Assembly (NCBI RefSeq): GCF_000264455.2
Contig: NC_017958.1
Coordinates: 310,001-374,000, forward strand
DNA from: Tistrella mobilis KA081020-065
GTDB taxonomy: Bacteria > Pseudomonadota > Alphaproteobacteria > Tistrellales > Tistrellaceae
Reading direction: 5' to 3'
DNA length: 64,000 bases
Shown here: positions 12,562 through 49,608 of the stretch, piece after piece
Numbering within the stretch: position 1 is the first letter of the stretch
How the letters are laid out: the number at the start of each line of letters is the position of its first letter
The notes under the pieces: generated by a model
The model's input: the letters and a program-made list of their open reading frames with translations, nothing else
Databases searched by the model: none
What the model was told of the DNA's origin: nothing
Made by a program: the position numbers and the translations under genes

Positions 12562-12595
12562 GGCCGCCCGGCGGGATCACCCCCGCCCGGCGGCC
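12562..12595. terminator. Bidirectional terminator hairpin between convergent genes
   Basis: A 14-bp stem with one mismatch (12562-12575 against 12582-12595) and a six-base loop lies between the YgiC-like gene and the convergent membrane protein, whose stop codon is inside the hairpin. The symmetry suits termination from both sides. Confidence 0.5.
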
Positions 12596-13212
12596 ACCCG
12601 CCGCAGCCGGACGTTCCACCAGATGATCGCCGGCACCACCAGCACCGTCGGCACCAGCCAGGTGGCGATCGGGGGCAGGCCGAGGGTCGGGCCGTTGACG
12701 ACCAGCGCGGCGGTGATGGTGCCGATCAGCGCGCCCATCATGCGCGAAAGGTGACGGGCGATGCGCGGCGGGCCGACGCGGCTCACCTCCATCAGGTCCT
12801 GGCAGGCGAGCGCGCCGCCGATCAGGCCGAAGACCGGCATGACGACATTGGCTGCCCCGCCCACCGCACCGGTCAGGCCGGCGACGATCATCACCAGGGC
12901 CAGGCCCAGCATCAACCCGGCGATCAGCCGGTCGGCCATGCCCGGCTCCGCCTTGCGACGGCGGGCGGCCCGCCAGCCGGCGGCGAGCAGATAGGCCGAA
13001 AACCCGGCAATGGCGAGCAGGAAGGACGAGAAGTTCACCAGCGCCAGCACCACCGAGGCGGCAAGCGATACGGCCATCGACCAGCCGAATACCCGGCCGA
13101 TCCGTCGGTGGCGGTCATTGCCCTTGCCCGGCAGGACCATCAGGGTCAAGCCGCTCGCCAGCGCCAGGGCGCCCGCCCCCACATGCAGCACCAGAAACGC
13201 CGTCGAAATCAT
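12577..13212 (-). CDS. Seven-helix membrane protein of unknown function (paralogue of 26546-27256)
   Basis: A 211-residue integral membrane protein with about seven hydrophobic helices. It begins STAFLVLHVGAGALALASGL, followed by VLPGKGNDRHRRIGRVFGW with basic residues that resemble DUF2306-like heme/quinone-type membrane proteins. Residues 70-130 (FSAYLLAAGWRAARRRK, ADRLIAGLMLGLALVMIVAG, then VFGLIGGALACQDL) closely match a second gene in this window at 26546-27256. No catalytic motif is recognised. It is monocistronic and convergent to the YgiC-like gene. Confidence 0.75.
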   Translation of the reverse strand: MISTAFLVLHVGAGALALASGLTLMVLPGKGNDRHRRIGRVFGWSMAVSLAASVVLALVNFSSFLLAIAGFSAYLLAAGWRAARRRKAEPGMADRLIAGLMLGLALVMIVAGLTGAVGGAANVVMPVFGLIGGALACQDLMEVSRVGPPRIARHLSRMMGALIGTITAALVVNGPTLGLPPIATWLVPTVLVVPAIIWWNVRLRRVAAGRG

Positions 13213-13348: not shown

Positions 13349-14242
13349 TCAGCTGCGACGGCGAAGTTCGGTCGGATCTCCCAAAGCCTGGAGGCGACGG
13401 GCGACCTCGGCGCAGTCGTCGTCGATCCGGGCGGGTACGTGGAGCAGTGCCTCCAGATGGGCGTCGTCGAAGCTCTCGACCGGCACGCCCTGAGCGCGGG
13501 CGATGCGATGGCTGCGCACCAGCCCGGGCAGATAGGTCTCCAGCGAACGGGCCGAGGTCCGGATGCTCATCAGCGGCGTCTGCACCATGCGCCCGGCGGC
13601 CCGGCCGCTTTCGGCGAGCGCCCGTTCGCGCACCGCCCGGGAATTGGCGGCGTTGTAGTTGAAAATCGCGCCGCCCAGCAGGCCGAAGGCCAGGATCGGG
13701 GCGTATTCGGCATAGATCGCCACGTCGTGTTCGGGCGGACCGGTGATCAGGGCCATCGCCACCCCAAGCCCGGTGCCGATCAGGAACAGCATGATCAGGC
13801 TGAACCAGTCGACCAGCAGCACCAGAAGGAACAGCGCCGTCAGGGTCGACATCTGCCAGATGACCGAACCGCCGTTCATCACCGTCATGAAGGTGAAGAA
13901 GAAGGGCAGGCAATAGCCCAGCATCACCAGCCAGACAGCCGGGATCCAGGGCTGCAGCCGCGCCGGCCAGCGTCGGCGGAAAGCAAGCAGCAGACACAGC
14001 ACCGACCCGGCCAGGCGCAGGCCGAGATTCTCGTAAGCCTGGGGAAAGAGGAAGGTCCAGACCATCCAATAGGCCGGCATCATCACCGCACCGGCGATCG
14101 ACACCGGCACGAGATTGGGCTCGATATGGCGGAAACCGTTCAGGATGATGCCGCGCAGGCTGCCGGCCGGGACGTCGGTGCCGGGGCGCGCGGCCTCGCC
14201 AGCCGGCCTCGGGTCGGATCGGTAGGTGCTGCTGCCCGACAT
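13349..14242 (-). CDS. CqsS-like membrane sensor lacking the phosphoacceptor histidine and kinase domain
   Basis: A 297-residue protein. Residues 40-195 hold six or so membrane helices with segments typical of CqsS/LqsS-type alpha-hydroxyketone sensors (FRHIEPNLVPVSIAGAVMMP, GYCLPFFFTFMTVMNGGSV with WQMS). After a linker, residues 218-290 align with the CqsS-family dimerisation helices: TPLMSIRTSARSLETYLPGL, then HRIARAQGVPV and DDAHLEALL. In active kinases the first helix begins HELRTPL; here it is RMVQTPL, so position 218 is Arg instead of His, and no ATP-binding domain follows. It starts five bases after the stop of the full sensor kinase at 14248, so they form one operon. Possibly a receptor-only subunit for that kinase. 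The family match is from remembered patterns. Confidence 0.7.
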   Translation of the reverse strand: MSGSSTYRSDPRPAGEAARPGTDVPAGSLRGIILNGFRHIEPNLVPVSIAGAVMMPAYWMVWTFLFPQAYENLGLRLAGSVLCLLLAFRRRWPARLQPWIPAVWLVMLGYCLPFFFTFMTVMNGGSVIWQMSTLTALFLLVLLVDWFSLIMLFLIGTGLGVAMALITGPPEHDVAIYAEYAPILAFGLLGGAIFNYNAANSRAVRERALAESGRAAGRMVQTPLMSIRTSARSLETYLPGLVRSHRIARAQGVPVESFDDAHLEALLHVPARIDDDCAEVARRLQALGDPTELRRRS

Positions 14243-14247
14243 GGTCT

Positions 14248-15762
14248 TCAGCCCATCACCGTGCTGGGGCCCGTCGGCATGCCGCCCCGGCCCTTGTCAC
14301 CACGCCCCTTGTCACCGCGTCCCCCGGCGCGCGGATCGGCACCGCCGCTCAGCCGGCCGCCGGCGCCCTGGTCGCTGATCCCCGAATGCGGTCCGCCGCG
14401 TCGGCCACTACCCACCACACGCGCCGCCGGCCAGGCGATCTCGGCACGGGTTCCCTCGTTCACCCGGCTGATCAGCTGGAAGCGACCGCCATGCATCTCG
14501 ATCAGCGACCGAACCAGCGGCAGGCCCAGCCCGGTGCCTGCATAGCGACGGTTGAGCGCACTGTCCACCTGTCCGAAGGCCTCCATCGCCCGGTTGATGT
14601 CTTCAGGCGCGATGCCGATGCCGGTATCGACCACCGCGATCGTCAACCCGCCCTCCTCGGCAATCCGCGCCTCTACCGTGACACTGCCGCCGATCGGGGT
14701 GAATTTGACCGCGTTCGACAGCAGGTTCAGCAGCACCTGCTTCATCGCCCGCTGGTCGCCGCGCAGCGCCGGCAGGTCGGGTGCCAGCATGTTGACCAGT
14801 TTCAGCCCGGCCTTGTCGGCCTGGCCGCGCATCAGATTGGTCGTGGTCCGGACGATGCTCTCCAGCGTGAAGACGCTTTCGTCCAGGTTGTAGGCGCCGG
14901 CCTCGATCTTCGACAGGTCCAGAATGTCGTTGACGATGTCGAGCAGGTGGACGCCGCTTTCGTTGATCAGCCGGGCGAATTCCATCTGCTCGTCGATCTG
15001 GGCGTCGTTGCGCGGCCGATCGTTCATCAGGATCTCCGAGAAACCGATGATCGCATTCAGCGGCGTGCGCAGTTCATGGCTGGTATTGGCGAGGAAATCG
15101 GATTTGGCGATGTTGGCCGCCTGGGCAGCCTGCACCGCATCGGCCAGTTCGATCCGCAGGCGCAGCCCGTCGTCCAGCAACCGTGCCAGATAATGCGCAC
15201 CCACCGCCAATACGGCTGCCGATGCGGCGATCGCCAGCAGCAGCGGCAGATCCATCCGCCCGGCGATGATCAGCCCGCCGGCAAGTGCCGTTGATGTCAC
15301 CCCCAGCCAGACCAGAGCCGCCGTCAGATGACAGGACATCATCACCGTGCCGGCCACACCGATCGCGGCGGTGGCGAACAATACCTTGGCCATGTCGATC
15401 GAGGCAGCGGCAGGCGCCAGCACCAGCGGCGCCAGCCCCCAGATCACACCGCTGACCGCGATGATCATCAGGATCGGCAGGGCGCGTTGTTCGGGTTCCG
15501 TGTCGGCACCGCCATCACGCAGATCACGCTGGATGGCGGCGAAGCGCAGGCCCACCAGACAGTTGACCGCCACCAGCCAGAGCGCGATCTGCTGCTGGGC
15601 GGCAGCGGGCCAGATCAGCACCGCCAGGCAGATCGAGACCAGCGGTTCCATAAGGATGCCGATCCGGGCGGCGCGGTAGAGCGCATCGAGCTGCGCGGCG
15701 CGCATGCGCGCCGTCACTGTCGCCGCCTGACCCTCCGCTCCACCGTCCCGCCGCAGGTTCAT
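14248..15762 (-). CDS. Membrane sensor histidine kinase
   Basis: A 504-residue kinase. Residues 30-190 contain about six membrane helices in three pairs with short loops (a MASE-like sensor with no large periplasmic domain). The dimerisation domain has ANTSHELRTPLNAIIGFSEI with His229 as phosphoacceptor. ATP-binding boxes follow: N box LLNLLSNAVKFTP, G1 VVDTGIGI, F/G2 FGQV and YAGTGLGL. The C-terminal 50 residues are glycine/arginine-rich with a short tandem repeat RGDKGRGDKGRG. No receiver domain or response regulator is adjacent, so its partner is elsewhere. The next gene, five bases on, is the histidine-less CqsS-like sensor. Confidence 0.88.
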   Translation of the reverse strand: MNLRRDGGAEGQAATVTARMRAAQLDALYRAARIGILMEPLVSICLAVLIWPAAAQQQIALWLVAVNCLVGLRFAAIQRDLRDGGADTEPEQRALPILMIIAVSGVIWGLAPLVLAPAAASIDMAKVLFATAAIGVAGTVMMSCHLTAALVWLGVTSTALAGGLIIAGRMDLPLLLAIAASAAVLAVGAHYLARLLDDGLRLRIELADAVQAAQAANIAKSDFLANTSHELRTPLNAIIGFSEILMNDRPRNDAQIDEQMEFARLINESGVHLLDIVNDILDLSKIEAGAYNLDESVFTLESIVRTTTNLMRGQADKAGLKLVNMLAPDLPALRGDQRAMKQVLLNLLSNAVKFTPIGGSVTVEARIAEEGGLTIAVVDTGIGIAPEDINRAMEAFGQVDSALNRRYAGTGLGLPLVRSLIEMHGGRFQLISRVNEGTRAEIAWPAARVVGSGRRGGPHSGISDQGAGGRLSGGADPRAGGRGDKGRGDKGRGGMPTGPSTVMG

Positions 15763-21024: not shown

Positions 21025-22731
21025 TCAATCGGTGCCGTCGAGACCCAGATCGCGCAGCTTGCGATAGAGGGTGGACCGGCCGATGCCCAGGCGGCGGGCC
21101 ATCTCGCTCACCCGGCCGCGATACTGGCGCAGCGCCATGCGGATGATATCGGCTTCAATCTCTTCCAGCGGCCGGATATGGCCCGCCTCGTCGAAGGCGC
21201 GGATCGGCGCCTCGGCCTCGTCGTCGCGCGGGCGCAGACCGGCTGCCGGCAGCGAGCCCTGGGGGGCCGGCGGCATCGGCGCAGGCATCGGCGCCTGGGC
21301 GAAGCCCTGGGGCATCATCGGGGCCGGCTGGCCGCCGCCCGCCGCGACCAGCATCGGGCGTCCCACCGGCATCTGAGTACCGGGCATCGGAGTACCCGGC
21401 ATGGGCGCAGGCGCCATCTGGCCCCCCGCCTGCGGATAGGCAAGCCCGCCCGGCGTCGGCGCCAGCGACGGCTGGCCGCCGGGCCCGGCATAGACCGGCG
21501 GACCGGCGCCGTAATCGCCGGGCAGCGCGGTATCGCCGAAGCCGTTGGCACGATAGGCCGCCTGCTGAACCTGGGGGAAATGCTCCACATCCAGGATGTC
21601 GACATCCGACAGCACGACCGCACGGAAGATCGCATTCTCCAGCTGGCGGACATTGCCCGGCCAGTGATAGGTGGTCAGCAGCCGCTCCGCCGCCTCGGTC
21701 AGGCCGCGGATCCGCTTGCCCTCTGCCGCCTCGAAGCGCTGGATGAAATGGCGAGCCAGAACCAGGATGTCGTCGCGCCGGTCGCGCAGCGGCGGCACAT
21801 AGATCGGAAAGACGTTGAGGCGATAATAAAGGTCGTCGCGGAACTGGCCGGTCTGGACCAGATCCCACAGATTGCGGTTGGTGGCCGAAATCAGCCGGAT
21901 ATCGATCGGCACCGGCTGCTTGGAGCCGACGGGGTCGATTTCACCCGCCTGCAGGGCGCGCAGCAGCTTGACCTGCAGATCCGGGCGCAACTCGCCGATT
22001 TCGTCCAGAAACAGGGTGCCGCCCGAGGCCTCCTGGAACTTGCCGATATGGCGCTCGCTCGCCCCGGTAAACGCCCCCTTCTCGTGGCCGAACAACAGAG
22101 TTTCGACCAGATTTTCGGGGATCGCGCCGCAATTGACCGTCACCAGCGGCCCGTGGGCGCGGTCGCTGCGGGCATGGATCGCCCTGGCGATCAGCTCCTT
22201 GCCGACACCGCTCTCACCCTCGATCAGGATCGGGATGGTCGAATTGGCCGCCCGCGCCACCAGGCCCAGCACGGCGCGGATCGCCCGACTGTCGCCCAGA
22301 ATATCGGTCACCGGCATCGGCCGGCCGCGCCGCGGCGCCACGCCGTCCAGATCGTCGGCGACGCCGGGACGCAGCGCCTGACGGATCGCGATCTGCAGCC
22401 GGTCGGCCGAGACCGGCTTGACCATGAAATCCGTCGCACCGGCCCGCATCGCCTGTACCGCCACATCAATGCCGCCATGGGCGGTGAAAACCAGAATCGG
22501 CAGATGCGGCCGGGTGGGCCGCACCTGGTTCAGCACGTCGATGCCCGACAGCCCCGGCATGGTGAGGTCGAGCAGTACCGCATCCACCCGCTCGCGCCCC
22601 GGCATCAGCAGGCGCACCGCCTCCTCGCCGCTGCCCACCGGCCGGGGCCGATAGCCGAAACGGCCGATCGTCGCCTCCAGCAGCCGGCGCTGAGCGGGGT
22701 CGTCATCGACGATCAGGATGGTGGGTGTCAT
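21025..22731 (-). CDS. NtrC-family sigma-54-dependent response regulator
   Basis: A 568-residue regulator. The receiver domain (1-120) has acidic DDD at 9-11, phosphoacceptor Asp55 (LLDLTMPG) and Lys105. The AAA+ domain (145-380) has Walker A GESGVGKE at 172-179, the sigma-54 contact loop GAFTGA at 219-224 and Walker B FLDEIGE at 241-247. A long proline/methionine/glycine-rich linker of about 130 residues (repeats like MPGTPMPGTQMP and APMPAPMPPAP) separates it from a Fis-type helix-turn-helix at the C-terminus (VSEMARRLGIGRSTLYRKLR). The start at 22731 begins the receiver domain directly. No cognate kinase is adjacent. Target genes are unknown. Confidence 0.92.
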   Translation of the reverse strand: MTPTILIVDDDPAQRRLLEATIGRFGYRPRPVGSGEEAVRLLMPGRERVDAVLLDLTMPGLSGIDVLNQVRPTRPHLPILVFTAHGGIDVAVQAMRAGATDFMVKPVSADRLQIAIRQALRPGVADDLDGVAPRRGRPMPVTDILGDSRAIRAVLGLVARAANSTIPILIEGESGVGKELIARAIHARSDRAHGPLVTVNCGAIPENLVETLLFGHEKGAFTGASERHIGKFQEASGGTLFLDEIGELRPDLQVKLLRALQAGEIDPVGSKQPVPIDIRLISATNRNLWDLVQTGQFRDDLYYRLNVFPIYVPPLRDRRDDILVLARHFIQRFEAAEGKRIRGLTEAAERLLTTYHWPGNVRQLENAIFRAVVLSDVDILDVEHFPQVQQAAYRANGFGDTALPGDYGAGPPVYAGPGGQPSLAPTPGGLAYPQAGGQMAPAPMPGTPMPGTQMPVGRPMLVAAGGGQPAPMMPQGFAQAPMPAPMPPAPQGSLPAAGLRPRDDEAEAPIRAFDEAGHIRPLEEIEADIIRMALRQYRGRVSEMARRLGIGRSTLYRKLRDLGLDGTD

Positions 22732-22995
22732 ATGATGGATGCGCCGTTCCGATGCCGTGGACGGGCGGCCGGAAACCCGGCCGGCCGCGAGAGACTGCAT
22801 ATTTAATCAGATAAGCGTATCACGTCCATTTACCAAGTTGGCCAACGCCAACGGCGCGATGGGCTGATGGCTGGGGTTGACCTGTGACGGTTCATTGAAA
22901 TCACTGGCGCATGTCCGTTCGGGTTGGTCGGCTCCGCCCGCCGGCCTATATTGTGTCCACCACGACGACACGGTTCCTTGAGGAGCAGCCTTCCC
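22732..22995. promoter_or_regulatory. Divergent intergenic region of the NtrC-type regulator and pepF
   Basis: The 264-base gap holds a palindrome GTTGGCCAAC at 22837-22846 in an AT-richer stretch, and a possible sigma-70 promoter for pepF, TTGGTC (22924-22929) with TATATT (22948-22953). No sigma-54 GG-N10-GC element stood out. Confidence 0.35.
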
Positions 22996-47828: not shown

Positions 47829-48327
47829 CGGATCCTGCTCCCTCTCGATCGGGCGGCGATGCCGGTCCCCCCTGGAACCCGTCCGCATCCCTGCCGTCCT
47901 TGAGACGAGCATAGTCAGGATACGGGCCCGGCCGCCAATCACCCTCCGCATCCTCGTCTTCACGATTTCGTGCGCCCCGCGTGACGCCCGCCGGGTCGAC
48001 AGCCCGGGAGAATTCTCCGCAAGAAAAAACACCTTTAAGTTGTGTGAATAAATCAAGACACCATAGAAGGGCGCAGGGCGATTGCACCCTTCATACGTGT
48101 GTCTTCTGCGGCCTGAAGATGAATGACGCGTGATGAAATATCGTCGTTAAGTTTCAGTTCATGATTCGATCCCTCCCTCTCCCCATGTAGCTTAGAGCGA
48201 GCCCGCGTCCATGGACGCAGCTCCGGATTGCGAACATCGGGCAGAACGCGCCGATGACCGCCCGGTTGCGCGAGAAACGCGCCCACCATTGTCCGGATCC
48301 CCGGACCTGTCCCTCAGGAGAAGACAC
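47829..48327. promoter_or_regulatory. Divergent regulatory region of the bufferin operon and cqsA
   Basis: Five hundred bases without a convincing gene. Bases 48020-48150 are AT-rich and probably hold the divergent promoters. Two perfect palindromes stand out: GGAGAATTCTCC at 48007-48018 on the bufferin side, and GCGTCCATGGACGC at 48205-48218, about 110 bases before the cqsA start. Either could be an operator. The leader of cqsA (48219-48327) has an AGGAG site at its end. Confidence 0.5.
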
Positions 48328-49608
48328 ATGCTCACCAACGACATCGCCACCGTCCGCACCGCCGCCGTCGACAGCCTGCACCGCACCCTGTCGGGCCCCC
48401 AGCCCTTTGCGGCGGCGCAGCCCCGCAGCCAGGGCGGGCTCGCCCCCGAACTGCCGGGCCTGCAGCGCCGCATGGCGGAATGGAAGGCCGAGTACCCCGA
48501 GCATCATGTCACGGTTGGCCGCGCGCCGCAGGCCGGATCCATCATGCTGGCCAATAACGATTATCTCTCGCTCGCCGATGACGGCCGGATCATCGGCGCG
48601 CTCCGCGCCGCCCTCGACGACGTGAAGACCGAGACCTTCATGTCGGGCGTGTTCGTGCAGTTCCTCGACGCGCAGGGCGCCTATGAGCGCGAGATGGCCC
48701 GGTTCCTGGGCTCGGAAGGTGTTGCCCTCTGCCAGTCGGGCTGGGCCGCCAATGACGGGCTGATCCAGGCGATCGCCGATGCCGACACCCCGGTCTATGT
48801 CGATCTTTACGGCCATGCCTCGCTCTGGCAGGGCATCCACAGCGCCGGCGCGAAGCCGCGGCCCTTCCGCCACAACAACATGACCCATCTGCGCAGCGTG
48901 ATCGCCAAGAACGGCCCGGGCGTGATCCTGGTCGATTCGGTCTACAGCACCAGCGGCGACCTCTGCCCGCTCGACCAGCTCTGCGATCTGGCGGAAGAGA
49001 CCGGCTGCATGCTGGTGGTGGATGAAAGCCATGGTGTCGGCGTGTTCGGTCCCCAGGGCTCGGGCCTCGTCACCGCCATGGGGCTGGAGCATCGGGTGCA
49101 TTTCCGCACCTTCAGCCTGTCCAAAGCCATGGTCGGCCGCGGCGGCATCGTCGCCGGCACGAAGAAGACGCTGGAGTATTTCCGCTACACCTCGCGGCCG
49201 GCGATCTTCAGCTCCACGGTTCTGCCGCACGAGATCGCCGGCTTCCGCGCCACGCTCGACGTGATCCGCGCCGACGAGCACCGGCGGTCGCGGCTCTTCG
49301 CCAACACCGCCTATCTGCGGGCGGGCCTGGCGGAGGTGGGCATCGACGTGGGCTCCAGCCCGGCGCCGATCATCTCGCTGATCGGCGGTGCCGAAGCGAA
49401 GACAGCACGGCTGCGCGACCGGCTGGAGGATCACGGCATCTTCGGCGCGGTGTTCTGCGCGCCGGCCACGCCCAAGGGCCGGTCGCTGGTCCGGCTGACG
49501 GTCAATTCCGGTCTCACCCAGGCCGATCTGGACCGGGTGATCCGGGCGGCGGCGGATTGCCGCGACCTGCTGGTCAGCGACCTGCGCCTCGAACGTGATG
49601 CCGCCTGA
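48328..49608 (+). CDS. cqsA: CqsA-type alpha-hydroxyketone autoinducer synthase
   Basis: A 426-residue PLP enzyme of the alpha-oxoamine synthase family that most resembles Vibrio CqsA and Legionella LqsA, which make CAI-1 type signals from acyl-CoA and SAM or an amino acid. Specific similarities: IMLANNDYLSLADDGRI, ETFMSGVFVQFL, CQSGWAANDGLIQAI, YVDLYGHASLWQGI, FRHNNMTHLRSVIAKNGPG, ILVDSVYSTSGDL, VVDESHGVGVFGP and PAIFSSTVLPHE. The PLP lysine is Lys266 in FSLSKAMVGRGG. The N-terminus is about 40 residues longer than in Vibrio. AGGAG precedes ATG 48328. It is divergent from the bufferin operon and ends at a TTCG hairpin. A CqsS-like receptor is encoded 34 kb away in this window. Confidence 0.88.
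   Translation: MLTNDIATVRTAAVDSLHRTLSGPQPFAAAQPRSQGGLAPELPGLQRRMAEWKAEYPEHHVTVGRAPQAGSIMLANNDYLSLADDGRIIGALRAALDDVKTETFMSGVFVQFLDAQGAYEREMARFLGSEGVALCQSGWAANDGLIQAIADADTPVYVDLYGHASLWQGIHSAGAKPRPFRHNNMTHLRSVIAKNGPGVILVDSVYSTSGDLCPLDQLCDLAEETGCMLVVDESHGVGVFGPQGSGLVTAMGLEHRVHFRTFSLSKAMVGRGGIVAGTKKTLEYFRYTSRPAIFSSTVLPHEIAGFRATLDVIRADEHRRSRLFANTAYLRAGLAEVGIDVGSSPAPIISLIGGAEAKTARLRDRLEDHGIFGAVFCAPATPKGRSLVRLTVNSGLTQADLDRVIRAAADCRDLLVSDLRLERDAA

Follow-up and report, generated by a model that had tools for sequence, protein, structure and literature searches.

The window analysed here, a stretch of 64,000 nucleotides from Tistrella mobilis, encodes a receptor of the CqsS/LqsS quorum-sensing family that has lost both its phosphoacceptor His and its ATPase domain, directly beside a complete histidine kinase with a membrane domain of another type. 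Judged by sequence, the receptor belongs with a few other phospho-dead receptors of CqsS type from Alphaproteobacteria. We think it probable that the two genes form a split receptor, in which the non-catalytic sensor would control the co-encoded kinase through its retained DHp helices. The features concerned are the following.

13349 to 14242, minus strand: non-catalytic CqsS/LqsS-type receptor, 297 amino acids, with a six-helix sensor and DHp hairpin and without an ATPase domain.
13652 to 14143, minus strand: membrane sensor of the receptor, about residues 34–197, placed by alignment and predicted helices.
13379 to 13651, minus strand: DHp-like helical hairpin of the receptor, about residues 198–288, placed by predicted helices.
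13589 to 13591, minus strand: codon of Arg218, at the phosphoacceptor His position by alignment.
14248 to 15762, minus strand: candidate partner histidine kinase, 504 amino acids, with its own membrane domain, HisKA (His229, SHELRTPL) and HATPase_c.
48211 to 49608, plus strand: cqsA, alpha-hydroxyketone-type autoinducer synthase (NF005526, 478.2 bits against an NCBI cut-off of 428).

The receptor reading frame begins with ATG, and local BLAST aligns its product with CqsS kinases from Vibrio (12 sequences, 32–36% identity, E about 1e-31 to 1e-22) and with LqsS-type kinases from Paraburkholderia, betaproteobacteria and Luteibacter (34–37% identity). An AlphaFold2 model (14 rows; mean pLDDT 84.5, pTM 0.66) comprises five membrane helices, a long helix spanning residues 178–250, and helices at 260–266 and 269–288. 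The long helix is predicted to continue the sixth membrane helix, giving a six-helix sensor that enters a DHp hairpin. Foldseek returned no solved structure at E ≤ 0.001 with this model, and a sequence search found no solved relatives (two matches, best E 0.091). In the column occupied by His in 11 of 11 His-bearing alignment rows the receptor has Arg218 (GRMVQTPL); the adjacent residue is Met, as opposed to Glu in the same 11 rows, and the subsequent Pro-Leu is retained. No Pfam or NCBIfam domain was matched at E ≤ 1, hence neither HATPase_c nor a receiver domain, and translation terminates where the second DHp helix ends. Because the stop is just 136 bp from the next open reading frame on the same strand (12577–13212), there is no room downstream for an ATPase domain. 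The initial annotation had described a protein that keeps the membrane sensor and both dimerization helices, carries Arg in place of the phosphoacceptor His and ends before the ATPase domain, a description with which the homology, the predicted helices, the alignment column and the missing domain match all agree. A search of the whole genome with the receptor sequence and a three-row sensor profile, in which all candidates were scored, found no second CqsS-type sensor.

The head-group specificity of Vibrio cholerae CqsS is reported to be determined by W104 and S107 (PMC3376566). The aligned equivalents in the receptor, counted from H194, are Trp129 and Ser132; by the same count the receptor has Phe at the F162 position, Leu at F160 and Gly at F166, and at the C170 position it has Phe, as does V. 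harveyi. The Trp is little informative because all 22 rows compared keep it, the Ser being more selective. From these residues the sensor looks able to bind an alpha-hydroxyketone.

The truncated His-less form is present, free of internal stops, in all three genomes of the genus, that of the window included, and the receptors of the other two are 99% and 95% identical to it. A sequencing error is therefore an unlikely cause of the missing 3' part. Relative to the other species of the genus, the whole gene has a dN of 0.030 and a dS of 0.313 (dN/dS about 0.09), the sensor part a dN of 0.016 and a dS of 0.269, and the DHp part a dN of 0.0099 and a dS of 0.364 (dN/dS about 0.03). By these estimates the receptor is a maintained gene under strong purifying selection.

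Genome contigs scanned with the single receptor protein yielded no relative. Scanned with an alignment of three rows they yielded 24 loci, which together with five plasmid loci and L045 make up the 30 receptor rows compared. Twenty-five rows carry the His (among them L041 and L044, with AHEMRNPL and AHEMRTPL), four lack it, and one (L069) has a GGDEF domain in the kinase's place. The His-less rows are a genome of the same species (L045), two alphaproteobacterial MAGs (L046 and L047) and a Sneathiellales MAG (L048), the three MAGs having Lys at the His position (AKEMQSPL, AKEMQLPL and SKELRPPL, respectively). When the search alignment took in the kinase core, 373 of the 385 class genomes were matched, with no more than four candidates scored in each; this result is informative solely for matches starting in the sensor, and ten rows chosen from such matches all keep the His. 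A sensor-profile search of 190 relatives of G002, one of the class genomes, added no high-scoring member to the genus and G002 itself.

The His-less receptors differ in the state of their ATPase domain. In L048 Pfam still recognizes HATPase_c (3.6e-17). L046 and L047 give no such match at E ≤ 1, their N-box Asn is absent, and most Gly residues of the G1 and G2 boxes are lost (one in G1 is kept by L047). A structure model of L046, moderate in confidence (mean pLDDT 70.9, pTM 0.44), has 58 matches to histidine-kinase cores at E ≤ 0.001, the best being 7z8n_A (GacS, 1.1e-6), so this protein seems to carry a folded pseudo-ATPase and not random sequence. As read from sequence, the domain is intact in L048, ruined in L046 and L047, and gone in the genus. 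The truncation that the initial annotation had proposed to look for in relatives is present in all three genus genomes, and L046, L047 and L048 keep the full length. Between L046 and L047, dN/dS is 0.27 in the DHp part, 0.38 in the ruined ATPase and 0.13 in the sensor, making the DHp part less constrained than the sensor. A tree built without the His box joins the genus firmly with L046 and L047 (99/98). When L048 is included a single change of state is needed, on a branch with 59/10 support that occurs in 64% of 200 bootstrap trees; support for tracing L048 and the others to one loss of the His is weak. Counting the sisters L046 and L047 as one, the six His-less genomes (three of the genus, three MAGs) represent about three independent lines.

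The kinase ends 5 bp upstream of the receptor on the same strand, a spacing that suggests co-transcription, and both of its catalytic domains are matched (HisKA 2.8e-20, HATPase_c 8.8e-26). When its membrane domain was compared with the receptor's sensor, no kinship was found: hhalign gives a probability of 6%, with an alignment confined to where the chain leaves the membrane domain. Scanning for promoters and terminators turned up one promoter-like site ahead of the kinase start and three terminator-like sites inside the receptor frame, a yield near chance. The neighbour had been annotated as a complete, co-transcribed kinase of a different sensor type; its completeness and distinct sensor stand, and its co-transcription is a reading of the gene spacing. 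A sigma-54-dependent response regulator encoded a few genes upstream on the same strand (21025–22800) is a candidate target of the kinase.

Orthologues of the kinase are encoded with the receptors of L046, L047 (both 42% identity) and L048 (38–39%). In these MAGs the kinase precedes cqsA in the same orientation, the frames being 0.2–0.5 kb apart, and the receptor is convergent to cqsA, as opposed to the kinase-receptor tandem with its 5-bp spacing in the window. The linkage of receptor and kinase, which recurs in four lineages, has survived a rearrangement. None of the 25 His-bearing loci, examined with flanks of 4–8 kb (some cut by contig ends), has a kinase of this type, the matches found there being kinase-core matches to the receptor kinases themselves. 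Five window proteins were tested against the relatives' loci, and only this kinase type and cqsA recur with His-less receptors. Across the 385 class genomes, with no more than seven candidates scored in each, a profile of the kinase membrane domain picks out 59 genomes at E ≤ 1e-8. Its scores are 297–368 bits in G002 and the three genomes of the genus, and the highest among the remaining 381 is 69.6 bits. Among the candidates so scored, the high-scoring sensor type is confined to genomes with a His-less receptor. Counted by lineage, with the genus taken as one, this co-occurrence amounts to two lines, to which L046 and L047 add from another collection. A single-sequence search with the membrane domain at 1e-10 had found the genus alone; G002 was missed and later recovered by the alignment search.

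The synthase gene is not adjacent to the receptor. It lies about 34 kb away in the window and about 35 kb away, on one contig, in the other two genus genomes, and cqsA is also present in each of L046, L047 and L048. Its true start may be further in than annotated, the match to the family starting at residue 90. In the class, cqsA exceeds the cut-off in 7 of 385 genomes, namely the three of the genus, G002 (two copies) and G187, G280 and G358 (one other genus).

In the split receptor that we propose, CqsA would make an alpha-hydroxyketone signal that binds the six-helix sensor. The receptor would relay the resulting conformational change via its DHp helices to the complete kinase, with which it would associate in a mixed DHp bundle or as a docked complex, and would switch its partner between phosphorylating and dephosphorylating a response regulator. 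The elements of this scheme that we infer are ligand binding, physical pairing, the direction of control and the target regulator. The initial annotation had offered two roles, a ligand-sensing subunit controlling the neighbour kinase or a decoy. The former idea is well supported by genome context, namely the gene pair in four lineages, its co-occurrence and the cqsA gene in the genome, with physical pairing, ligand response and control being presumed. The latter has nothing specifically in its favour and keeps some plausibility from other cqsA genes that adjoin kinases without a CqsS-type sensor. We also lean, with somewhat less assurance than for the pair itself, towards a split receptor conserved in Alphaproteobacteria, its sensor subunit acting solely via a dedicated kinase whose membrane domain is unrelated. 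In that reading the relatives would preserve intermediates of the loss: His lost with the ATPase intact, His lost with the ATPase ruined, and both lost.

These other cqsA genes are the basis for a second division of labour, one that we consider unlikely, in which the 14248 kinase itself is the alpha-hydroxyketone receptor and the CqsS-like protein serves as a co-receptor, attenuator or signal sink. G187, G280 and G358 have cqsA and, with all candidates scored, no CqsS-type sensor at E ≤ 1e-3, and both the G187 gene and the second G002 copy are divergent to kinases with another membrane sensor. The kinase at the second G002 copy aligns with residues 117–400 of the 14248 kinase (36%, 7e-42), a match that extends into the membrane domain. 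Because cqsA adjoins such kinases, kinases without CqsS kinship may sense alpha-hydroxyketones, the 14248 kinase perhaps alone. However, a CqsS-type sensor with its head-group residues kept has been held under purifying selection in the genus, the membrane domain of the kinase has no kinship with CqsS, and a pure sink would presumably have no need of so well conserved a DHp part.

The usual output of these systems is also missing. LqsR-like genes occur in 10 of the 25 His-bearing loci, in eight of them between receptor and cqsA, and a receiver domain is found in the C-terminal part of the 12 Vibrio receptors and those of L041 and L065 (in L057 also by Pfam); L043 showed neither. No LqsR match was found in any of the four His-less loci, and the three genomes of the genus have none anywhere at E ≤ 1e-3. 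The best match in G002 is 1.7e-4 over 74 residues, and all four alphaproteobacteria tested that have His-bearing sensors give 1e-30 to 1e-51. Both the locus and the genome-wide results indicate that absence of the His accompanies absence of LqsR and presence of the 14248-type kinase.

It is less likely still that the receptor targets something else, its DHp helices binding, for example, a response regulator or another protein. The DHp helices of histidine kinases double as the regulator-docking surface, and the genus does not encode LqsR, which usually fills the regulator role, both of which would fit such a target; yet it is the 14248-type kinase that, with cqsA, recurs beside His-less receptors among the five proteins tested and co-occurs with them in the class sample. 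A last reading, in which the gene is the decaying, functionless remnant of a CqsS kinase, as the joint loss of His and ATPase domain and the absence of LqsR might suggest, is so improbable that we set it aside. It is opposed by the low dN/dS (about 0.09, and 0.03 in the DHp part), by the intact frame in all three genus genomes and by the absence of the His in three relatives that keep the full length.

In the known CqsS and JqsS systems the receptor is reported to be a sensor kinase (PMC3285556, PMC3566124). The T. mobilis receptor resembles CqsS of Vibrio and LqsS/JqsS of Legionella, Janthinobacterium and Paraburkholderia in its homologous six-helix sensor, W104/S107-equivalent residues, DHp hairpin and a cqsA gene in the genome. 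It differs from them in lacking the phosphoacceptor His (H194), the ATPase domain, a receiver domain and LqsR, and in having a separate complete kinase encoded beside it. In keeping the DHp part with catalytic residues lost, it is comparable to pseudo-histidine-kinase modulators of the DivL and RetS type. Kinase-inactive DivL is described as toggling CckA in Caulobacter, and RetS as heterodimerizing with GacS in Pseudomonas (PMC12189002). The likeness is one of functional analogy, to a kinase-dead protein that modulates a partner kinase and to a hetero-association that lets one sensor kinase control another. Unlike the receptor, DivL reads cell-cycle cues and retains an ATPase-type domain, and RetS, a hybrid kinase, has its own activities. 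A truncated ChrS pseudokinase of Corynebacterium is reported to boost signalling through HrrS in a manner that requires its DHp, and was active in vivo, yet gave no significant heterodimerization in two-hybrid assays (PMC9491836). It offers a parallel in that catalysis is lost and the DHp is needed for an effect through a second kinase, but it is a laboratory-evolved mutant and not a conserved natural gene, and its context is heme and not a quorum signal. A CqsS sensor has been reported to be able to regulate a foreign cyclase (PMC4821796). By analogy with these precedents, we propose that the receptor acts on its co-encoded kinase. The accessible text of an article on the evolution of such systems (PMC8895600) makes no mention of a truncated CqsS, and no His-less or truncated CqsS-type receptor appeared among the open-licence PMC papers listed in literature searches.

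If the proposal is true, sensing and catalysis would have come to reside on separate proteins in a well-studied quorum-sensing family, and relatives may still display steps by which this happened. The pair would provide a small natural system, with a predictable small-molecule input, for a DHp-bearing protein controlling another kinase, a form of control that is an open point in DivL-CckA and RetS-GacS. Alpha-hydroxyketone quorum sensing would also be predicted in these alphaproteobacteria.

Several other arrangements of synthase and sensor were observed. In L106 (2891–4105) and L110 (3210–4127), cqsA is divergent to kinases that share a non-CqsS membrane domain and a motif like RRxRAFxVSHVxGPP, possibly a second kind of alpha-hydroxyketone receptor. 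In G280 (L105:1-2649), cqsA is continuous in one frame with a part that, judged by eye, resembles an RND/MMPL-type transporter, which suggests a synthase-transporter fusion. Four alphaproteobacteria with genomes of 1.5–2.6 Mb (G021, G250, G153 and G235) have His-bearing CqsS-like kinases and LqsR, and are absent from the seven class genomes with cqsA over the cut-off; their sensors have possibly been repurposed or listen to others. On a Paraburkholderia caribensis plasmid (L041), a CqsS-like kinase of hybrid type neighbours a gene resembling beta-ketoacyl synthase III, and the stretch of the locus examined contains no match to cqsA. In a Desulfocapsa MAG (L069:7971-9065), a CqsS-type sensor (25% identity) is fused to a GGDEF domain and seems to be wired to a diguanylate cyclase.
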